A DNA stretch of 64,000 nucleotides from the NCBI RefSeq assembly GCF_900099965.1, contig NZ_FNDJ01000019.1:1-64000 (forward strand), in the 5' to 3' direction. Below, in pieces: positions 38,470-46,337 of this stretch. Numbering within the stretch: position 1 is the stretch's first letter; every line of letters starts with the position of its first letter. Under the pieces are notes generated by a model. It was not told the DNA's origin and did no database searches. It was given only the letters and a program-made list of their open reading frames with translations. Both the position numbers and the translations under genes were made by a program. Origin of the DNA: Nonomuraea jiangxiensis (GTDB lineage: Bacteria > Actinomycetota > Actinomycetes > Streptosporangiales > Streptosporangiaceae).

Positions 38470-39053
38470 ACGCCGTCGTGCTCGGCCTGCTGGAGCGGGA
38501 GTGGGAGGCGCAGTCCGGCCGGGACCGCCCGTTCGCGATCACCTGCCGGGTCACGGAGGTGCTGGAGCTGGCCTACGGCGGTGCCGTACGCGATCTTCCG
38601 GAGGCCGGCACGCCCGGTGACCTGCTGGCCGGGCTCGGTCCCGCAGCGCCCGCGCCGTGGGCGCTGCGGGTCCTGACCGCGCTGTCCGAGCTCGACCATC
38701 GGCCGGTGCCCGCGCCCGCCGAGGCCGGCACCCTGGTACGCCCCGGCCCTGCTCCCCCGCTGCCGCTCCGGCCCGGCCAGGCCGCCACCCCCGCCCGGGC
38801 GCGACAGCTCACCGTGTCCGCCGCCCGGCCCCGGATCCGCGTCACCCGGCTGGTCGGTGCGCATCTGCTGGCCGCCGGGGCCGGGTTCGGCCTCGCCATG
38901 ACGTTAGGGAGTTCATCCGTCCTACTCGGCACGTTCGCCGCGGTCGCGGGCGCGTGGGCCGCACTGCTCATCCCTGCCAGGAAACCCCCCGGAGCCATTG
39001 GAGCGTTCCACGATGACGACAAGCCGGATCGCGAGGCGAACCCGCACGCGTGA
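38466..39053 (+). CDS. Hypothetical two-helix membrane protein in the eCIS operon
   Basis: 195 residues. The N-terminal soluble part (1-110) opens with a helical AVVLGLLEREWEAQSGRDRP, followed by a Pro/Ala-rich linker. Two membrane helices follow at about 128-147 and 151-170, and the tail ends in a charged stretch. GTG 38466 overlaps the ATPase stop by 4 nt, and its end overlaps the DUF4157 gene by 41 nt, so it is translated within the operon. The two-helix hairpin could anchor the particle or ATPase at the membrane. No known family. Confidence 0.65.
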   Translation: MNAVVLGLLEREWEAQSGRDRPFAITCRVTEVLELAYGGAVRDLPEAGTPGDLLAGLGPAAPAPWALRVLTALSELDHRPVPAPAEAGTLVRPGPAPPLPLRPGQAATPARARQLTVSAARPRIRVTRLVGAHLLAAGAGFGLAMTLGSSSVLLGTFAAVAGAWAALLIPARKPPGAIGAFHDDDKPDREANPHA

Positions 39054-41184
39054 CCGCGCCCGCACCGTGGCCAGGCGCTCGGCCGAGCCGACGCATGGGC
39101 GCCCGGCCGAGCCGGCGGTCGTGGCCGGGCTGAGCAACCGGGCGATGGCCGGGTTCGTCCAGGCCAAGCTCGCCGTCAGCCGGCCCGGCGACCCGGCCGA
39201 GCGCGACGCCGACCGGGTGGCGGCCGAGGTGATGCGCTCGGCCGAGTTGTCCCGGCCGCCGATGCGTGTGGCGGGCTCCTGCTCCCGCTGCGCGGACGAC
39301 GGCCGGCCGTGTTCGGGCTGCCAGGCGAGGCGATCGGCGGAAGGGGGCACCGGCGGGCGCCCGGTGGAAGGAGATCCCGGCGGCGGCACCGCGAGTGTGG
39401 TGATCCCGGTGGGCGGGCAGCCGCTGCGGGCGGTGGACCGGGCCTTTTTCGAGCCGCGGCTGGGCGTGGACCTGGCGGGTGTGCGCGTGCACACCGGGAC
39501 GGCGGCGGGCGCGGCGGCCAGGTCGCTGCGGGCCAAGGCGTACACCGTGGGCCACGACGTGGTCTTCGGCACCGGCCGCTACGCCCCGGAGACCGTTCAG
39601 GGACGCCTCCTGCTCGCCCACGAGCTGGCGCACGTCGCCCAGCAGGGCGGCACCGTGCGCGGCACTGTGGGCGGCACTGTGCGGCGCGCTCCGGAGCAGG
39701 GGCTGTCGCTGTTCGACGCGGGCCAGGCGCTGCTGACGGGTGGCCCGGCCGCGCTGGCGGGCGAGCTGTGGCTGAGGCTGTCGCCGGAGCAGAAGACGTC
39801 CTATGTCGACAGGGCGCTGGAAGGCGCCGCGATGGTGGTCGCCAAGCTGCCGAGCGATCCGATGCTGGGCGTGCTGTGGCCGCTGTTCAGGACGGGGCTC
39901 GAAGGGTTCATCGCCCGGCTGCGCTCGCCGCGGGTCAAGGCCGAGGAGAAGGTCCGGGCGATGGACAAGATCGCCGGGATCGTGGCCGGCAGGAACCCGG
40001 AGTTCAACAAGGCCTTCCTGACGGGGGTGGCCAAGGGCTTCTTCGTCGAGGGCATGCTCGGCATCTTCGTCATGATCCGCGACGTCGTCCTGGCGATGCC
40101 GCGGATCTGGGCGTTCGTCGAGAACGTGGGCCGGACCATCGGCGGGTTCCCCGACGCCGTCGCGGACCTCCTCCGGGAGCTGCGCGGGACCTGGGAGACC
40201 CTGGTCAGCGAGTCCGGCTCGATCGCCGCGCAGGCGTGGGAGCACGCGAAGCACCCCGGCAGGGTGCTGGAGGAGCTCTCCTCGGCCTGGTCGAAGGTCA
40301 AGGACCTGGTCAGGAGCAAGGCCGGCGACCTCGCGGAGGAGCTCGTCCAGGCGGTCAACCGGCCGGGCAGCGAGGTGACCCTGGGCGAGACCACCGGCAG
40401 CGTGCTCGGACAGGGGCTCTGGGAGGTCCTCTTCGACGTGCTGACCGCGGGCGGCGGCGCGGCGGTGACCGGGGTGAAGGCCGCGCTCAAGCCGGTCATC
40501 GCCTTCTTCCAGCGGCTCGGCGGCAAGATCGCCAGCGGTTTCATGGCGCTCTTCCGGCAGGTCCACGGCCTCCTGGAACCAGCGGTCAAGTGGATCAGGA
40601 GCACGGCCGGCGCGGCCAAGGGCAAACTGGGCGAGTTCGGCGAGCGGCTCGGCGCCCTGGTCGAGAAGCTGAAGGACTTCTTCGCCCGGCTGCTCGGCGG
40701 CTGCCACGAGAGCAAGCTGACGTGCGCGTTGCCCGGCTCCCGGCGCAACAAATATCCGGAGTTCGAGCCGGTGCACCCGGGTCTCCGGCCGAAGGCGCTC
40801 GCCCAGGCCAAGAACCTCAGCAAGCAACTCGGCATCGCCATCCCGGCCGACCGGCTCCTCGACGCGCCCTGGATCGGCCGCCTCCGCAACAAGGCGGGGA
40901 AGACCCGACCGATCTCCACCAGCATGGGTTTCCTCCGCAGCGAGAGCCGCTTCTGGCGGAAGTTCGAGGAGCTCTTTTCTGAGGATTTCAAGCTCATCGG
41001 GAAGGGCCGGCGCGTCACCAAGGAGCTCGCCGCGAAATACGGCTGGGACCCCAAGTACGTGGGCGACAAGCTCGTCCATCACCACGTGGAGAACGGCCAG
41101 CTCGTGGCCGCGATCCCGGAGGGCCTGCATCACGAGCTCTCCGGCACGATCCACGCGACGGCCACCGTGGTCGGCCGGCCATGA
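39013..41184 (+). CDS. eCIS-core (DUF4157) protein with C-terminal His-rich nuclease-like domain
   Basis: 723 residues. A basic N-terminus (RIARRTRTRDRARTVARR) precedes a CxxC-x(n)-CxxC knuckle (about 90-103) and the DUF4157/eCIS-core domain (about 120-215) with HELAH at 203-207 in RLLLAHELAHVAQQ. A long helical middle (about 235-570) follows, and the C-terminal domain (about 600-723) ends with KLVHHHVENGQL, IPEGLHHE and TIHAT, the histidine spacing of HNH/Endo VII-superfamily toxin nucleases. DUF4157 marks eCIS-associated effectors, so this is a good cargo-toxin candidate. ATG 39013 lies within the preceding gene. Confidence 0.8.
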   Translation: MTTSRIARRTRTRDRARTVARRSAEPTHGRPAEPAVVAGLSNRAMAGFVQAKLAVSRPGDPAERDADRVAAEVMRSAELSRPPMRVAGSCSRCADDGRPCSGCQARRSAEGGTGGRPVEGDPGGGTASVVIPVGGQPLRAVDRAFFEPRLGVDLAGVRVHTGTAAGAAARSLRAKAYTVGHDVVFGTGRYAPETVQGRLLLAHELAHVAQQGGTVRGTVGGTVRRAPEQGLSLFDAGQALLTGGPAALAGELWLRLSPEQKTSYVDRALEGAAMVVAKLPSDPMLGVLWPLFRTGLEGFIARLRSPRVKAEEKVRAMDKIAGIVAGRNPEFNKAFLTGVAKGFFVEGMLGIFVMIRDVVLAMPRIWAFVENVGRTIGGFPDAVADLLRELRGTWETLVSESGSIAAQAWEHAKHPGRVLEELSSAWSKVKDLVRSKAGDLAEELVQAVNRPGSEVTLGETTGSVLGQGLWEVLFDVLTAGGGAAVTGVKAALKPVIAFFQRLGGKIASGFMALFRQVHGLLEPAVKWIRSTAGAAKGKLGEFGERLGALVEKLKDFFARLLGGCHESKLTCALPGSRRNKYPEFEPVHPGLRPKALAQAKNLSKQLGIAIPADRLLDAPWIGRLRNKAGKTRPISTSMGFLRSESRFWRKFEELFSEDFKLIGKGRRVTKELAAKYGWDPKYVGDKLVHHHVENGQLVAAIPEGLHHELSGTIHATATVVGRP

Positions 41185-44008: not shown

Positions 44009-44440
44009 ATGCCCAGGCCAGTGGATCCGTACCGGAGCTTCAACTTCCACGTCGAGATCGACGGCATCACGCAGGCGGGGTTCACCGAGTGCACCGGGTT
44101 CTCCGCGTCCGTCGACCCGGCCGACTATCGCGAGGGTAAGGACGGCCCTGCCATCAGGAAACTCCCGAACCTCGCCAAATACTCCAACCTCACGCTCAAA
44201 TGGGGGCTGACCGACTCGCGGGACCTGTTCGACTGGTTCGTCGACGTGACCATCGGCAAGATCAGCCGCCGGAACGGCTCGATCATCGTCTACGACCTCG
44301 ACGGCATGACCGAGAAGGTCCGCTGGAACTTCTTCGAGGCCTGGCCCACCAAGTGGGACGGCCCCGACTTCAACGCCACGGGCACCGCCGTCGCCATCGA
44401 CACGCTCGAAATCGCCTACGAGCGGCTGAGGAGAGAGTAG
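44009..44440 (+). CDS. Tail tube protein (gp19-like)
   Basis: 143 residues, T4 gp19/PVC-tube family: VDPYRSFNFHVEIDGITQAG, FTECTGFSASVDPADYREGK, KLPNLAKYSNLTLKWGLTDS, RNGSIIVYDLDG and WNFFEAWPTKWDGPDFNATG. It polymerises into the inner tube driven out by sheath contraction. Strong RBS GAGAGGAG. Only one tube gene is seen. It overlaps the next GTG start by 1 nt (TAGTG). Confidence 0.93.
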   Translation: MPRPVDPYRSFNFHVEIDGITQAGFTECTGFSASVDPADYREGKDGPAIRKLPNLAKYSNLTLKWGLTDSRDLFDWFVDVTIGKISRRNGSIIVYDLDGMTEKVRWNFFEAWPTKWDGPDFNATGTAVAIDTLEIAYERLRRE

Positions 44441-44799
44441 TGATCGCCACCGAACGCCCCTTCCGGCTGCCCGTCGGCTATCTCGACGAGGAGGGCACCT
44501 TCCACCGCGACGGCGTCATGCGCATGGCGACGGCGGCGGACGAGATCCTGCCGCTGCGCGACCCGCGGGTGCAGGGCAACGAGGCCTACCTCATCGTCAT
44601 CCTGCTCTCCCGGGTGATCACCCGGCTCGGCACCCTGGAGGCGGTCACGCCCAAGGTCATCGAGAGCGTCTTCGCCGCCGACCTCGCCTACCTGCAGGAC
44701 TTCTACAACGAGGTCAACCTGACCGGCGAGGCGCGGGCCGCGTGCCCCTCCTGCGAGCACCGGGCTGAACTGGAGGTGAGCGGTGCGGGGGGATCGTAG
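44440..44799 (+). CDS. eCIS assembly protein, zero-frame product, with CxxC tail
   Basis: 119 residues: RPFRLPVGYLDEEGTFHRDG, AADEILPLRDPRVQGNEAYL, LSRVITRLGTLEAVTPKVIE, FAADLAYLQDFYNEVN and a Cys motif ACPSCEHRAELEV. By position (after sheath and tube) and size it resembles phage tail-assembly chaperones. Its last codons, GCG GGG GGA TCG TAG, contain a G GGG GGA heptamer, and the next coding frame (DUF6760) continues in -1 without a start codon. The gene therefore probably also yields a 172-residue frameshift product. GTG 44440 overlaps the tube stop. Confidence 0.75.
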   Translation: MIATERPFRLPVGYLDEEGTFHRDGVMRMATAADEILPLRDPRVQGNEAYLIVILLSRVITRLGTLEAVTPKVIESVFAADLAYLQDFYNEVNLTGEARAACPSCEHRAELEVSGAGGS

Positions 44800-44834
44800 G
44801 CTACCCCCTCGACTCCCTCTACGGGGAGGTAGCC
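44772..44834 (+). promoter_or_regulatory. Putative programmed -1 ribosomal frameshift signal
   Basis: Elements in order: Shine-Dalgarno-like GGAGGT (44772-44777), 9 nt, slippery heptamer G GGG GGA (44787-44793) in the correct phase for the zero frame, 5-nt spacer, then a hairpin with perfect arms GGCTACC (44799-44805) and GGTAGCC (44828-44834). One mismatch and four further pairs extend the stem above a 12-nt loop. The zero-frame TAG is at 44797-44799. The order and spacings match bacterial -1 frameshift sites such as dnaX. Confidence 0.6.
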
Positions 44835-44957
44835 TTCCTCGCCTACCACTTCCACTGGCCGCTCCCCGACCTGCTCGACCTGGAGCACGCGGACCGGCGG
44901 CGGTGGGTGGCCGAGGTGTCGGCCATCAACCGGCGCATGGTGGAGACGGACGGGTGA
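44793..44957 (+). CDS. DUF6760 domain, encoded in the -1 frame (no start codon of its own)
   Basis: 54 codons: IVGYPLDSLYGEVAFLAYHF, HWPLPDLLDLEHADRRRW, then VAEVSAINRRMVETDG. It matches the short DUF6760 proteins found after the tube genes of eCIS clusters, and its codon third positions are GC-rich. The frame opens after a TGA at 44766 and has no ATG, GTG, TTG or CTG before the conserved YPLD; only rare codons such as ATC are possible. Translation by -1 frameshifting from the upstream gene explains it best. A missing G in the G6 run would also fuse the frames. Its TGA overlaps the next GTG. Confidence 0.7.
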   Translation: MVGYPLDSLYGEVAFLAYHFHWPLPDLLDLEHADRRRWVAEVSAINRRMVETDG

Positions 44958-45643
44958 ACCGCTGGGTCGCCTGGGCCGCCCGGCTGGCGGCCCGCCGGGG
45001 GCGCCGGCCGGTGCGCCGCCCGGTCGCGCCGCTGGTCCTGCTCCGCCTGTGGCGTCCGGTGCCGGGCGGCAGGCGCCATACGTTCTCCGCGAACATCCGC
45101 GTCGTCACCCGTGCGGTCCTCCTCACCGGCCCCGCGCGGTCGGCGGTGGTCCCGCTCCGCGCGGTGCGCATCCGGCCGGTCGGGCTGACCGTTCGGGGCA
45201 CGCGGACGACCACCGTCCTCACCCCGCACCGGACCGCTCGCGAGCGGCACGCGGGCTCCCCGCTGACGCGCCGTGACGGTGTCCGGTTCACGGCGCCGCT
45301 CCGCCACGACAGCACCCGGTCCACGGCGCCGCAGCGCCGCCACACCCGCGTCGAACGGCCCGCGCGCGAGTGGCGCGGCCAGGTCGGCTCGCCGGGCACG
45401 CACGCGCCGGTCCCGGCCGGTCCCGTGGTGGCGGTGAGGCAGGCCGTTCCCTCGGGGCGGCCGCAGCAGGCTGTGCCCGGGCCGATGGTCACGGGGGCGT
45501 TGCGGCAGGCCGTACCGGAGGCGGAGCCACGGGTGACGGAGGCGCGAGCGCCCGCGCTGGATCTGGAGCGGATCGCCGACGACGTGCTGCGCCGCATCGA
45601 CCGGCGGATCGTCGCGCACCGGGAACGGCTGGGACGGATCTGA
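44954..45643 (+). CDS. Arg-rich eCIS protein of unknown role
   Basis: 229 residues, strongly basic (RRGRRPVRRPVAPLVLLRLW at the N-terminus) with a low-complexity middle and a repeated LRQAVP/VRQAVP element. It ends in an amphipathic helix LDLERIADDVLRRIDRRIVA before HRERLGRI; that type of C-terminal helix recurs in actinobacterial eCIS clusters at this position. GTG 44954 overlaps the DUF6760 stop (GTGA). It could be a tape-measure-like or tube-tip adaptor protein, but it is short for a tape measure. Confidence 0.6.
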   Translation: MNRWVAWAARLAARRGRRPVRRPVAPLVLLRLWRPVPGGRRHTFSANIRVVTRAVLLTGPARSAVVPLRAVRIRPVGLTVRGTRTTTVLTPHRTARERHAGSPLTRRDGVRFTAPLRHDSTRSTAPQRRHTRVERPAREWRGQVGSPGTHAPVPAGPVVAVRQAVPSGRPQQAVPGPMVTGALRQAVPEAEPRVTEARAPALDLERIADDVLRRIDRRIVAHRERLGRI

Positions 45644-45653
45644 GGGAGCCACG

Positions 45654-46337
45654 ATGCCGCTGGAGAGGTTGACGATCACCCCGCTGGACGCGACGGGACG
45701 CCCGCAGGCCGGCCGCCGGGTCAAGGTCCGCTACAACCCGGAGGAGTTCACGGTCAGCAAGGACAACGCCTTCGCCGTGCAGGGCGTGCCCGGCCTGGGC
45801 TCGCCGATCGTGCAGTTCGTCAGCGGCAACCAGCGCACGCTGGAGATCGAGCTCTTCTTCGACACCTACGACAACGAACAGCTGCCCAAGACCGACGTCA
45901 GGACGGAGACCGGGCAGGTCGCCGCGTTCATGGAGCTGGACTCCGATCTGCACGCGCCGCCGGTGGTCGAGGTGGCGATGGCGGCCTGGAGTTTCCGCGG
46001 CGTGCTGACCAGGGCCAGCCAGCGCTACATCCTGTTCATGCCCGACGGCACCCCGGTGCGGGCCCGGATGTCCTGCACGTTCATCGAGTACGTGGACCAG
46101 GAGCAGGCGGCCAGGGCGGCCAACCTGCAGACCGCCGACTACAGCAAGCAGCACGTCGTCGCCGGTGACGAGACGCTCTCCTCGATCGCCGCCCGGCTCT
46201 ACGGCGACGCGGCCAAGTGGCGGCCGATCGCGCTGGCCAACGGCCTGGCCGACCCCCGCGAGATCGCGCCGGGCGACGCGCTGCACGTGCCCGCCCTGCC
46301 CTACGTCAACCCGGTGACCTGGGAGGTGGAGGAGTGA
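45654..46337 (+). CDS. LysM baseplate hub protein (gp53/Pvc7-like)
   Basis: 227 residues. N-terminal part: VRYNPEEFTVSKDNAF, TLEIELFFDTYDNEQLPKTD, FRGVLTRASQRYILFMPDGT. C-terminal LysM (about 170-215): HVVAGDETLSSIAARLYGDA, WRPIALANGLADPREIAPGD. In PVC/Afp this protein links the spike to the first tube ring. ATG 45654; its end overlaps the next gene (GTGA). Confidence 0.88.
   Translation: MPLERLTITPLDATGRPQAGRRVKVRYNPEEFTVSKDNAFAVQGVPGLGSPIVQFVSGNQRTLEIELFFDTYDNEQLPKTDVRTETGQVAAFMELDSDLHAPPVVEVAMAAWSFRGVLTRASQRYILFMPDGTPVRARMSCTFIEYVDQEQAARAANLQTADYSKQHVVAGDETLSSIAARLYGDAAKWRPIALANGLADPREIAPGDALHVPALPYVNPVTWEVEE

Follow-up and report, generated by a model that had tools for sequence, protein, structure and literature searches.

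A probable programmed −1 frameshift between a tail assembly chaperone and DUF6760 in a contractile injection system of Nonomuraea jiangxiensis

The Chaperone–DUF6760 Junction

The first 64,000 nucleotides of contig NZ_FNDJ01000019.1 from Nonomuraea jiangxiensis (assembly GCF_900099965.1), hereafter the window, carry an extracellular contractile injection system (eCIS) cluster in which a gene related to phage tail assembly chaperones runs into a frame encoding the domain DUF6760. The junction and its neighbouring genes lie on the forward strand. The chaperone open reading frame (ORF) occupies 44440..44799 in the zero frame and encodes 119 residues, the putative short or "G" form. Its GTG start at 44440 has been assigned from homology and from its position at the stop of the tube gene, and a mechanical ORF list opens the same frame earlier, at 44200; the TAG stop lies at 44797-44799. 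The protein matches phrog_508 (tail assembly chaperone) with an E-value of 9.8e-6, as do 59 of 60 members of its family (alignment A1). An AlphaFold2 model of the chaperone reached a pLDDT of 85.7, and the HK97 tail assembly chaperone, a weak match, was the only solved structure shown for it by a second aligner. Searches of Pfam and NCBIfam with the protein, and of PDB sequences with the chaperone profile, returned no match. Judged by its profile matches, the upstream ORF is a member of the phage tail-assembly-chaperone family, which supports the analogy with the phage G/GT pair drawn in a preliminary description of this DNA.

DUF6760 (PF20546, E-value 1.1e-14) is encoded in the −1 frame relative to the chaperone. 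This frame is open from 44769, following a TGA at 44766-44768, and closes with a TGA at 44955-44957; no ATG, GTG, TTG or CTG occurs ahead of the conserved YPLD motif. A slippery heptamer, G_GGG_GGA, lies in the chaperone phase at 44787..44793. After a 5 nt spacer (44794-44798), it is followed by a predicted hairpin with arms GGCTACC (44799..44805) and GGTAGCC (44828..44834). Should the ribosome shift at the heptamer, the extension or "T" domain would span 44793..44957, and the whole unit, 44440..44957, would encode a long "GT" form of 172 residues next to the short form of 119. The missing start, the −1 frame, the in-phase heptamer, the hairpin and the position of the zero-frame stop were all found where the preliminary description had placed them. 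Its length for the short product also holds, provided that the slip occurs at the heptamer, and its "172-residue extension" needs correction, as 172 residues is the length of the extended product. A fold search of DUF6760 against the PDB gave no match; at the sequence level, two sc-apCC chains appeared with E-values of about 1e-5, which have been taken as helix resemblance, and three other chains had E-values above 0.6.

The preliminary description had further included the Shine-Dalgarno-like GGAGGT at 44772..44777 as part of the signal. This element is present, 9 nt 5' of the heptamer, and it does not stand as a conserved part: among 148 comparable loci (see below), a Shine-Dalgarno-like 5-mer occurs 4-20 nt upstream of the heptamer in just 37. 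It has therefore been rejected as a required element and is probably not essential. In bacterial −1 sites generally, an upstream stimulator of this kind is optional.

Loci Used for Comparison

Scans with the DUF6760 Pfam profile detected the domain in 5 of 59 genomes of relatives, 23 of 396 from the window's phylum, 26 of 301 from Chloroflexota, 28 of 292 from Cyanobacteria, 7 of 398 from Pseudomonadota and 1 of 199 from Acidobacteriota (the centre genome itself); the last four sets are labelled after the named locus that seeded each centre, and the window's phylum is most likely Actinomycetota, to judge by named relatives. A total of 165 loci was tabulated, 85 found by profile and 80 seeded. 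Since the seeded set was partly recruited by the junction peptide, counts for profile-found loci are given apart. Weak matches (L003, L173, L175), a locus giving no match with our own DUF profile (L109) and second copies (L110-L116) were left out before counting. The 30 loci used to train our own profiles, one for the chaperone and one for the DUF, include the window. A locus was considered chaperone-adjacent when the chaperone match ended at most 60 nt from DUF6760, which holds for 153 of the 165; the remaining 12 are L007, L067, L100, L102-L105, L107, L108, L140, L174 and L176. Two loci are identical copies of others (L133 of L037, L086 of L085).

Phase and Slippery Site

The two genes are held in the −1 relation in 152 of the 153 chaperone-adjacent loci, and 148 carry an in-phase G_GGG_GRN heptamer (150 and 146 of 151 without the identical copies). 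When only the profile-found loci are considered, which come from the window's phylum, Chloroflexota, Cyanobacteria and Pseudomonadota, the phase is −1 in 73 of 74 and the heptamer is present in the same phase in 70. In 36 plus-strand loci of this kind that were checked, the Pfam match starts 12-33 nt after the start of the heptamer. The site reads GGGGGAA in 77 of the 148 loci, GGGGGAG in 25, GGGGGGA in 23 and GGGGGGG in 23, so that five-G sites account for 102. Its presence at the junction exceeds chance: elsewhere in the chaperones of these 148 loci GGGGGR occurs 15 times in 17,464 codons, 7 of them in the junction phase, and GGG makes up 23-26% of the glycine codons in five of six locus groups, while the one Pseudomonadota chaperone uses it for 3 of its 9. 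Conservation of the junction Gly-Gly, as read in the −1 frame, is 90% or higher across 61 proteins.

The exceptions are few. G_GGA_AAG takes the place of G_GGG_GRN in L036 and L171; L094 has G_GGG_CGA; L101 lacks a heptamer and has an ATG; and L164 reads +1, apparently through an upstream indel, with GGGGGAG still there. Five plasmid loci that are not included in the 153 (L177-L181; L178 is apparently the same plasmid as L142) are all in −1. Four of them (L177, L178, L179, L180) have G_GGG_GRN, with L177 and L180 extending the same phase to Paraburkholderia and Paenibacillus. The fifth, L181, also has G_GGG_GAA, but its ATG overlaps, and the distance from the end of its chaperone match is 62 nt.

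The same junction was found on viral contigs, as called by IMG/VR, when that database was scanned with a peptide pattern inside DUF6760. All 18 loci recovered are in −1: nine have G_GGG_GRN, two have G_GGA_AAG (L198 and L199), six have T_TTT_TTY and one (L188) has no clear heptamer; L189/L190 and L198/L199 are apparently near copies. The T_TTT_TTY site lies a few codons before the chaperone stop in the six contigs, five of which also have an ATG, GTG or TTG between the heptamer and the domain. A tblastn search of DUF6760 in 50,697 phage records yielded no match, the 18 contigs having come from the IMG/VR scan. In L192, the order is sheath, gp19 tube, chaperone, −1 DUF6760 and tape measure, equal to the phage G/GT order, and the chaperone matches PF12322, phrog_150 and phrog_508. 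The alignment of the junction across related loci, which had been named beforehand as a check, has thus come out in support of the frameshift, with the same phase, slippery site and constrained stem in several phyla, an in-phase heptamer conserved in relatives (GGGAAAG or TTTTTTY in some of those without G_GGG_GRN) and other canonical heptamers in some lineages.

The two domains also occur joined without a shift. Proteins of the PF12322 (T4_baseplate)/phrog_150 kind that end in a DUF6760-like domain are encoded in one frame at L007, L140 and L174, the last below the Pfam cut-offs. In L007 and L140, a PF12322 protein carries DUF6760 at its C-terminus, and therefore the fused form exists naturally in a single frame. 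No chaperone match was found in L174 or L176.

Further arrangements were observed in the course of these scans. A second chaperone–DUF6760 pair is present in the window's own genome (L002, contig C58, 97498-100626), in the −1 frame with CCG GGG GAA; some 26 codons separate its heptamer from the zero-frame stop that follows. In the cyanobacterial scan, two successive chaperone matches, the second adjoining DUF6760, occur in L143-L145, L150, L156, L158, L160-L166 and L168-L170. In the phage-like contig L192 (2917-5838), a tape measure gene directly follows the −1 DUF6760, whose viral match is phrog_10636, a family of unknown function.

The Downstream RNA Stem

All seven pairs of the hairpin can form in the window, and the predicted fold that includes it has a minimum free energy of −30 kcal/mol (z −1.90), with 7 of 200 shuffled sequences being as stable. 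In the window's class (75 sequences), 96.4% of the cells of the 7-bp stem are paired and 12 show a double change, against a shuffle mean of 4.0; neither figure was reached in 500 shuffles. Codon choice within the arms is strongly skewed. The Val or Ile codon ends in A in 70 of the 75 sequences (69 GTA and 1 ATA; 7.6 expected), NGC is used in 75 (30.7 expected), TAC for Tyr in 73 (36.3) and GAG for Glu in 75 (40.4), with the size of these effects overstated since related sequences are counted as independent. The same preferences are found when only the 27 cyanobacterial sequences are considered (Val/Ile-A 26, NGC 27, TAC 26 and GAG 27, against 5.5, 6.3, 6.8 and 8.1 expected). In these, the Ala wobble position, which belongs to the outermost pair, is unconstrained (C in 10 of 27; 8.8 expected).

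A second class of junction, TY or Streptomyces-type, has a stem displaced by a few bases, with 10 pairs that are 90.8% paired; the two outer pairs fail in 12 and 17 of 40 sequences. Four double-change cells (L004, L005, L089, L093) were counted, against 0.2 in shuffles. Sliding this stem also gives four such cells, but with only 6.5% paired. In the window's class, the choice of wobble bases shows the hairpin to be constrained beyond codon bias.

Weighing the Explanations

The features of the junction are best read as programmed −1 ribosomal frameshifting, whereby two forms (119 and 172 residues) of a single eCIS tail assembly chaperone would be produced in the manner of the lambda G/GT pair, with DUF6760 as the T domain. 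From the comparison of sequences, we place the probability of this reading at about 0.9. Loci with ATGA overlaps, the positions of the chaperone stops and mixed results from the stem controls weigh against it. Taken by itself, the −1 phase does not prove frameshifting, as five loci outside the 60-nt rule (L100, L103, L104, L107, L108) owe it to an ATGA overlap and lack any slippery site. These five form a separate, DUF6760-like class, to which also belong L102 and L067, with an ATG ahead of the YP motif, and L105, with a GTG, all three lacking a slippery site; here, absence of the slippery site is accompanied by a true start codon. As for the stop, its distance past the heptamer is 0 or 1 codon in 131 of 148 loci. 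In the stem of the window's class, 10 of the 12 double changes fall in the outermost pair, which itself fails in 15 of 75 sequences, and four pairs are invariant; 174 of 500 shuffles reached the number of further pair types, and 45 of 500 reached that of pairs with a double change. When the stem is slid by +1, its covariation score comes to 0.075 vs 0.082, but only 52% of its cells pair. In terms of sequence evidence for the stem, codon choice is thus better than covariation, the latter being modest, with mixed controls in the window's class and a clearer signal in the TY class.

Several of these observations are what would be expected if DUF6760 were a separate gene, re-initiated or translationally coupled near the chaperone stop through a GTGA or ATGA overlap or, in the window, through an unusual ATC or GTA start. 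We regard this as unlikely. The ATGA-overlap loci and the 131 closely placed stops agree with it, as does the annotation of separate DUF6760 genes in Nostoc and in Rhodococcus plasmids, and some G-rich tetramers were suspected of acting as Shine-Dalgarno sites in an Escherichia coli survey (PMC4066793). It is strongest in the TY class, where the stop overlap holds GTG in 30 of 40 sequences, ATG in 4, CTG in 5 and GCG in 1. Because GTG or ATG is found there in 34 of 40, re-initiation could operate, and the argument for frameshifting is weaker where such a start stands beside the slippery site; the six with CTG or GCG fit re-initiation poorly. In the window's class, however, there is no ATG, GTG or TTG from the heptamer to the Tyr in 66 of 75 sequences, and none back to the upstream stop or for 90 nt in 37. 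Stop–start coupling is also ill-suited to 17 of the 148 loci, in which 2 to 26 codons separate the heptamer from the chaperone stop downstream. An ATC or GTA start has been rejected, as the residue after the Gly-Gly is I, V, A, S, G or M in relatives. The phase of the slippery site, its replacement by GGGAAAG or TTTTTTY, the Gly-Gly in the −1 frame and the hairpin would, moreover, have no obvious use in re-initiation.

The run of six Gs in the window might instead suggest transcriptional slippage, in which the fusion would be translated from messenger RNA with one extra G. This is very improbable and has been rejected on the grounds that just five Gs (GGGGGAA or GGGGGAG) are present at 102 of the 148 sites and that GGGAAAG stands in their place in two loci and two contigs; a constrained hairpin just downstream and a strict phase fit slippage by the ribosome. 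Least credible of all is an error of sequencing or assembly, or a decayed fused gene. Homopolymers are prone to error and in-frame fusions exist elsewhere (L007, L140), but 152 of 153 loci, drawn from many genomes, share the phase, the stem is constrained and the domains in both frames are intact. A plain fused gene with miscounted Gs has been rejected on the constancy of the phase, and the seven-G run that the preliminary description had named as a refutation is, given the recurrence of the phase in many genomes and the five-G and GGGAAAG sites, very unlikely.

The Surrounding eCIS Cluster

In the window, the eCIS cluster comprises an AAA ATPase, an eCIS_core protein, a Pvc16-like protein, a sheath, a gp19 tube, the chaperone ORF, DUF6760, a 229-residue protein, a LysM/CIS tube protein, a hub, a spike, a PAAR protein and gp25. 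The components by which an eCIS is recognized when clustered (sheath, tube, Pvc16-like protein, spike/PAAR, gp25, AAA ATPase and eCIS_core) are represented by matches to PF04984, PF06841, PF14065, PF04717, PF05488, PF04965, PF00004 and PF13699. Immediately 5' of the chaperone, the gp19-family tail tube protein is encoded at 44009..44440 (PF06841, E-value 3.1e-43). The next gene after DUF6760 encodes an Arg-rich protein of 229 residues (44954..45643), without a match in Pfam, NCBIfam or PHROGs, which by synteny with L192 stands in the tape-measure position. It is followed by a contractile injection system tube protein with a LysM domain at 45654..46337 (PF19266, E-value 3.8e-31; PF01476). The eCIS_core protein at 38998-41184 has a C-terminal Tox-HNH-HHH nuclease-like domain and is likely a cargo effector.

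Proposed Mechanism and Relation to Known Systems

From what is directly seen at these loci (homology, phase, slippery site, stem, heptamer replacement, in-frame fusions and phage-like synteny), we infer that the fusion is made, its ratio and the binding roles of its parts. Under programmed frameshifting, most ribosomes would translate 44440-44799 into the 119-residue chaperone, while a fraction would slip by −1 on G_GGG_GGA when the P site holds tRNA-Gly on GGG and the following tRNA occupies the A site. The slip would be aided by the hairpin 5 nt downstream, and the ribosome would continue into DUF6760 to give the 172-residue fusion. By homology with the phage G/GT proteins, the chaperone part may bind a rod-like cargo or a tape-measure-like partner and the DUF6760 part may recruit the tube protein; the protein at 44954-45643 would occupy the place of the tape measure. 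Going beyond the window, there is a reasonable case that eCIS of many bacterial phyla have kept a lambda-like G/GT pair in which DUF6760 serves as the T domain, that the slip is set by a separately selected RNA stem, and that the ratio of the two forms governs nucleation of the tube around cargo, although neither a phage genome nor a classical tape measure is present. Re-initiation at an overlapping start may act together with the slip in Streptomyces-type systems.

The heptamer of lambda G/GT is G_GGA_AAG, the site that also occurs in the bacterial loci L036 and L171 and in the viral contigs L198 and L199. As in lambda, a short chaperone and a −1 extended form are encoded right after the tube gene. 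Unlike lambda, the system is a contractile injection system, the extension is DUF6760, the usual heptamer is G_GGG_GRN, a constrained hairpin lies downstream, and no tape measure gene was identified beside the chaperone in the window. The site resembles that of dnaX in having a slippery heptamer, a downstream hairpin and, in the window, an upstream Shine-Dalgarno-like element, but it differs in the gene concerned and in the lack of conservation of that element. T4-like phages are reported to do without frameshifting; the T4-type family (PF12322, phrog_150) is represented here by the single-frame fusions of L007 and L140 and by the phage-like chaperone of L192, while the window protein has no Pfam match. 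The lambda model has the tape measure as binding partner of the G part and the tube as that of the T part (PMC5009743). G_GGA_AAG is listed among the most efficient heptamers in E. coli (PMC4066793). In the SEA-PHAGES material, GGGGGAA is the sole "fivetwo" motif among a thousand such motifs, and the annotated frameshifts are nearly all in tail assembly chaperones (PMC10274946); −1 frameshifting of phage tail chaperones, including that on GGGGGAA, is therefore already known. Actinobacteriophage chaperones (PMC10274946) share this heptamer, in the same kind of gene, with Streptomyces-type eCIS loci, although they are viral and are linked to the window protein through phrog_508 only. For a cluster of phage chaperone frameshifts, 6-7% shifting has been measured (PMC3711429), and tape-measure-like effectors have been described in the Streptomyces contractile injection system (PMC11126660, PMC13277306). 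Among the open-access papers listed for eCIS and for tailocins or pyocins, titles and abstract openings contained no report of a frameshift in an eCIS; the same literature gave no paper naming DUF6760 and none joining a GGGGGG slippery site with tail assembly.

The reading put forward here proposes a function for DUF6760, a domain of unknown function, and explains why its gene lacks a start codon, owing to which it could be missed or given a wrong start in annotation. It describes a widely conserved bacterial −1 frameshift site at which one pair of genes is joined through any of three kinds of heptamer. Injection machines, as relatives of phage tails, may have retained a translational switch of the phage. 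Should assembly or cargo loading depend on the ratio of the two forms, expressing such systems recombinantly with an altered site could fail, and the cause would be one that is at present overlooked.
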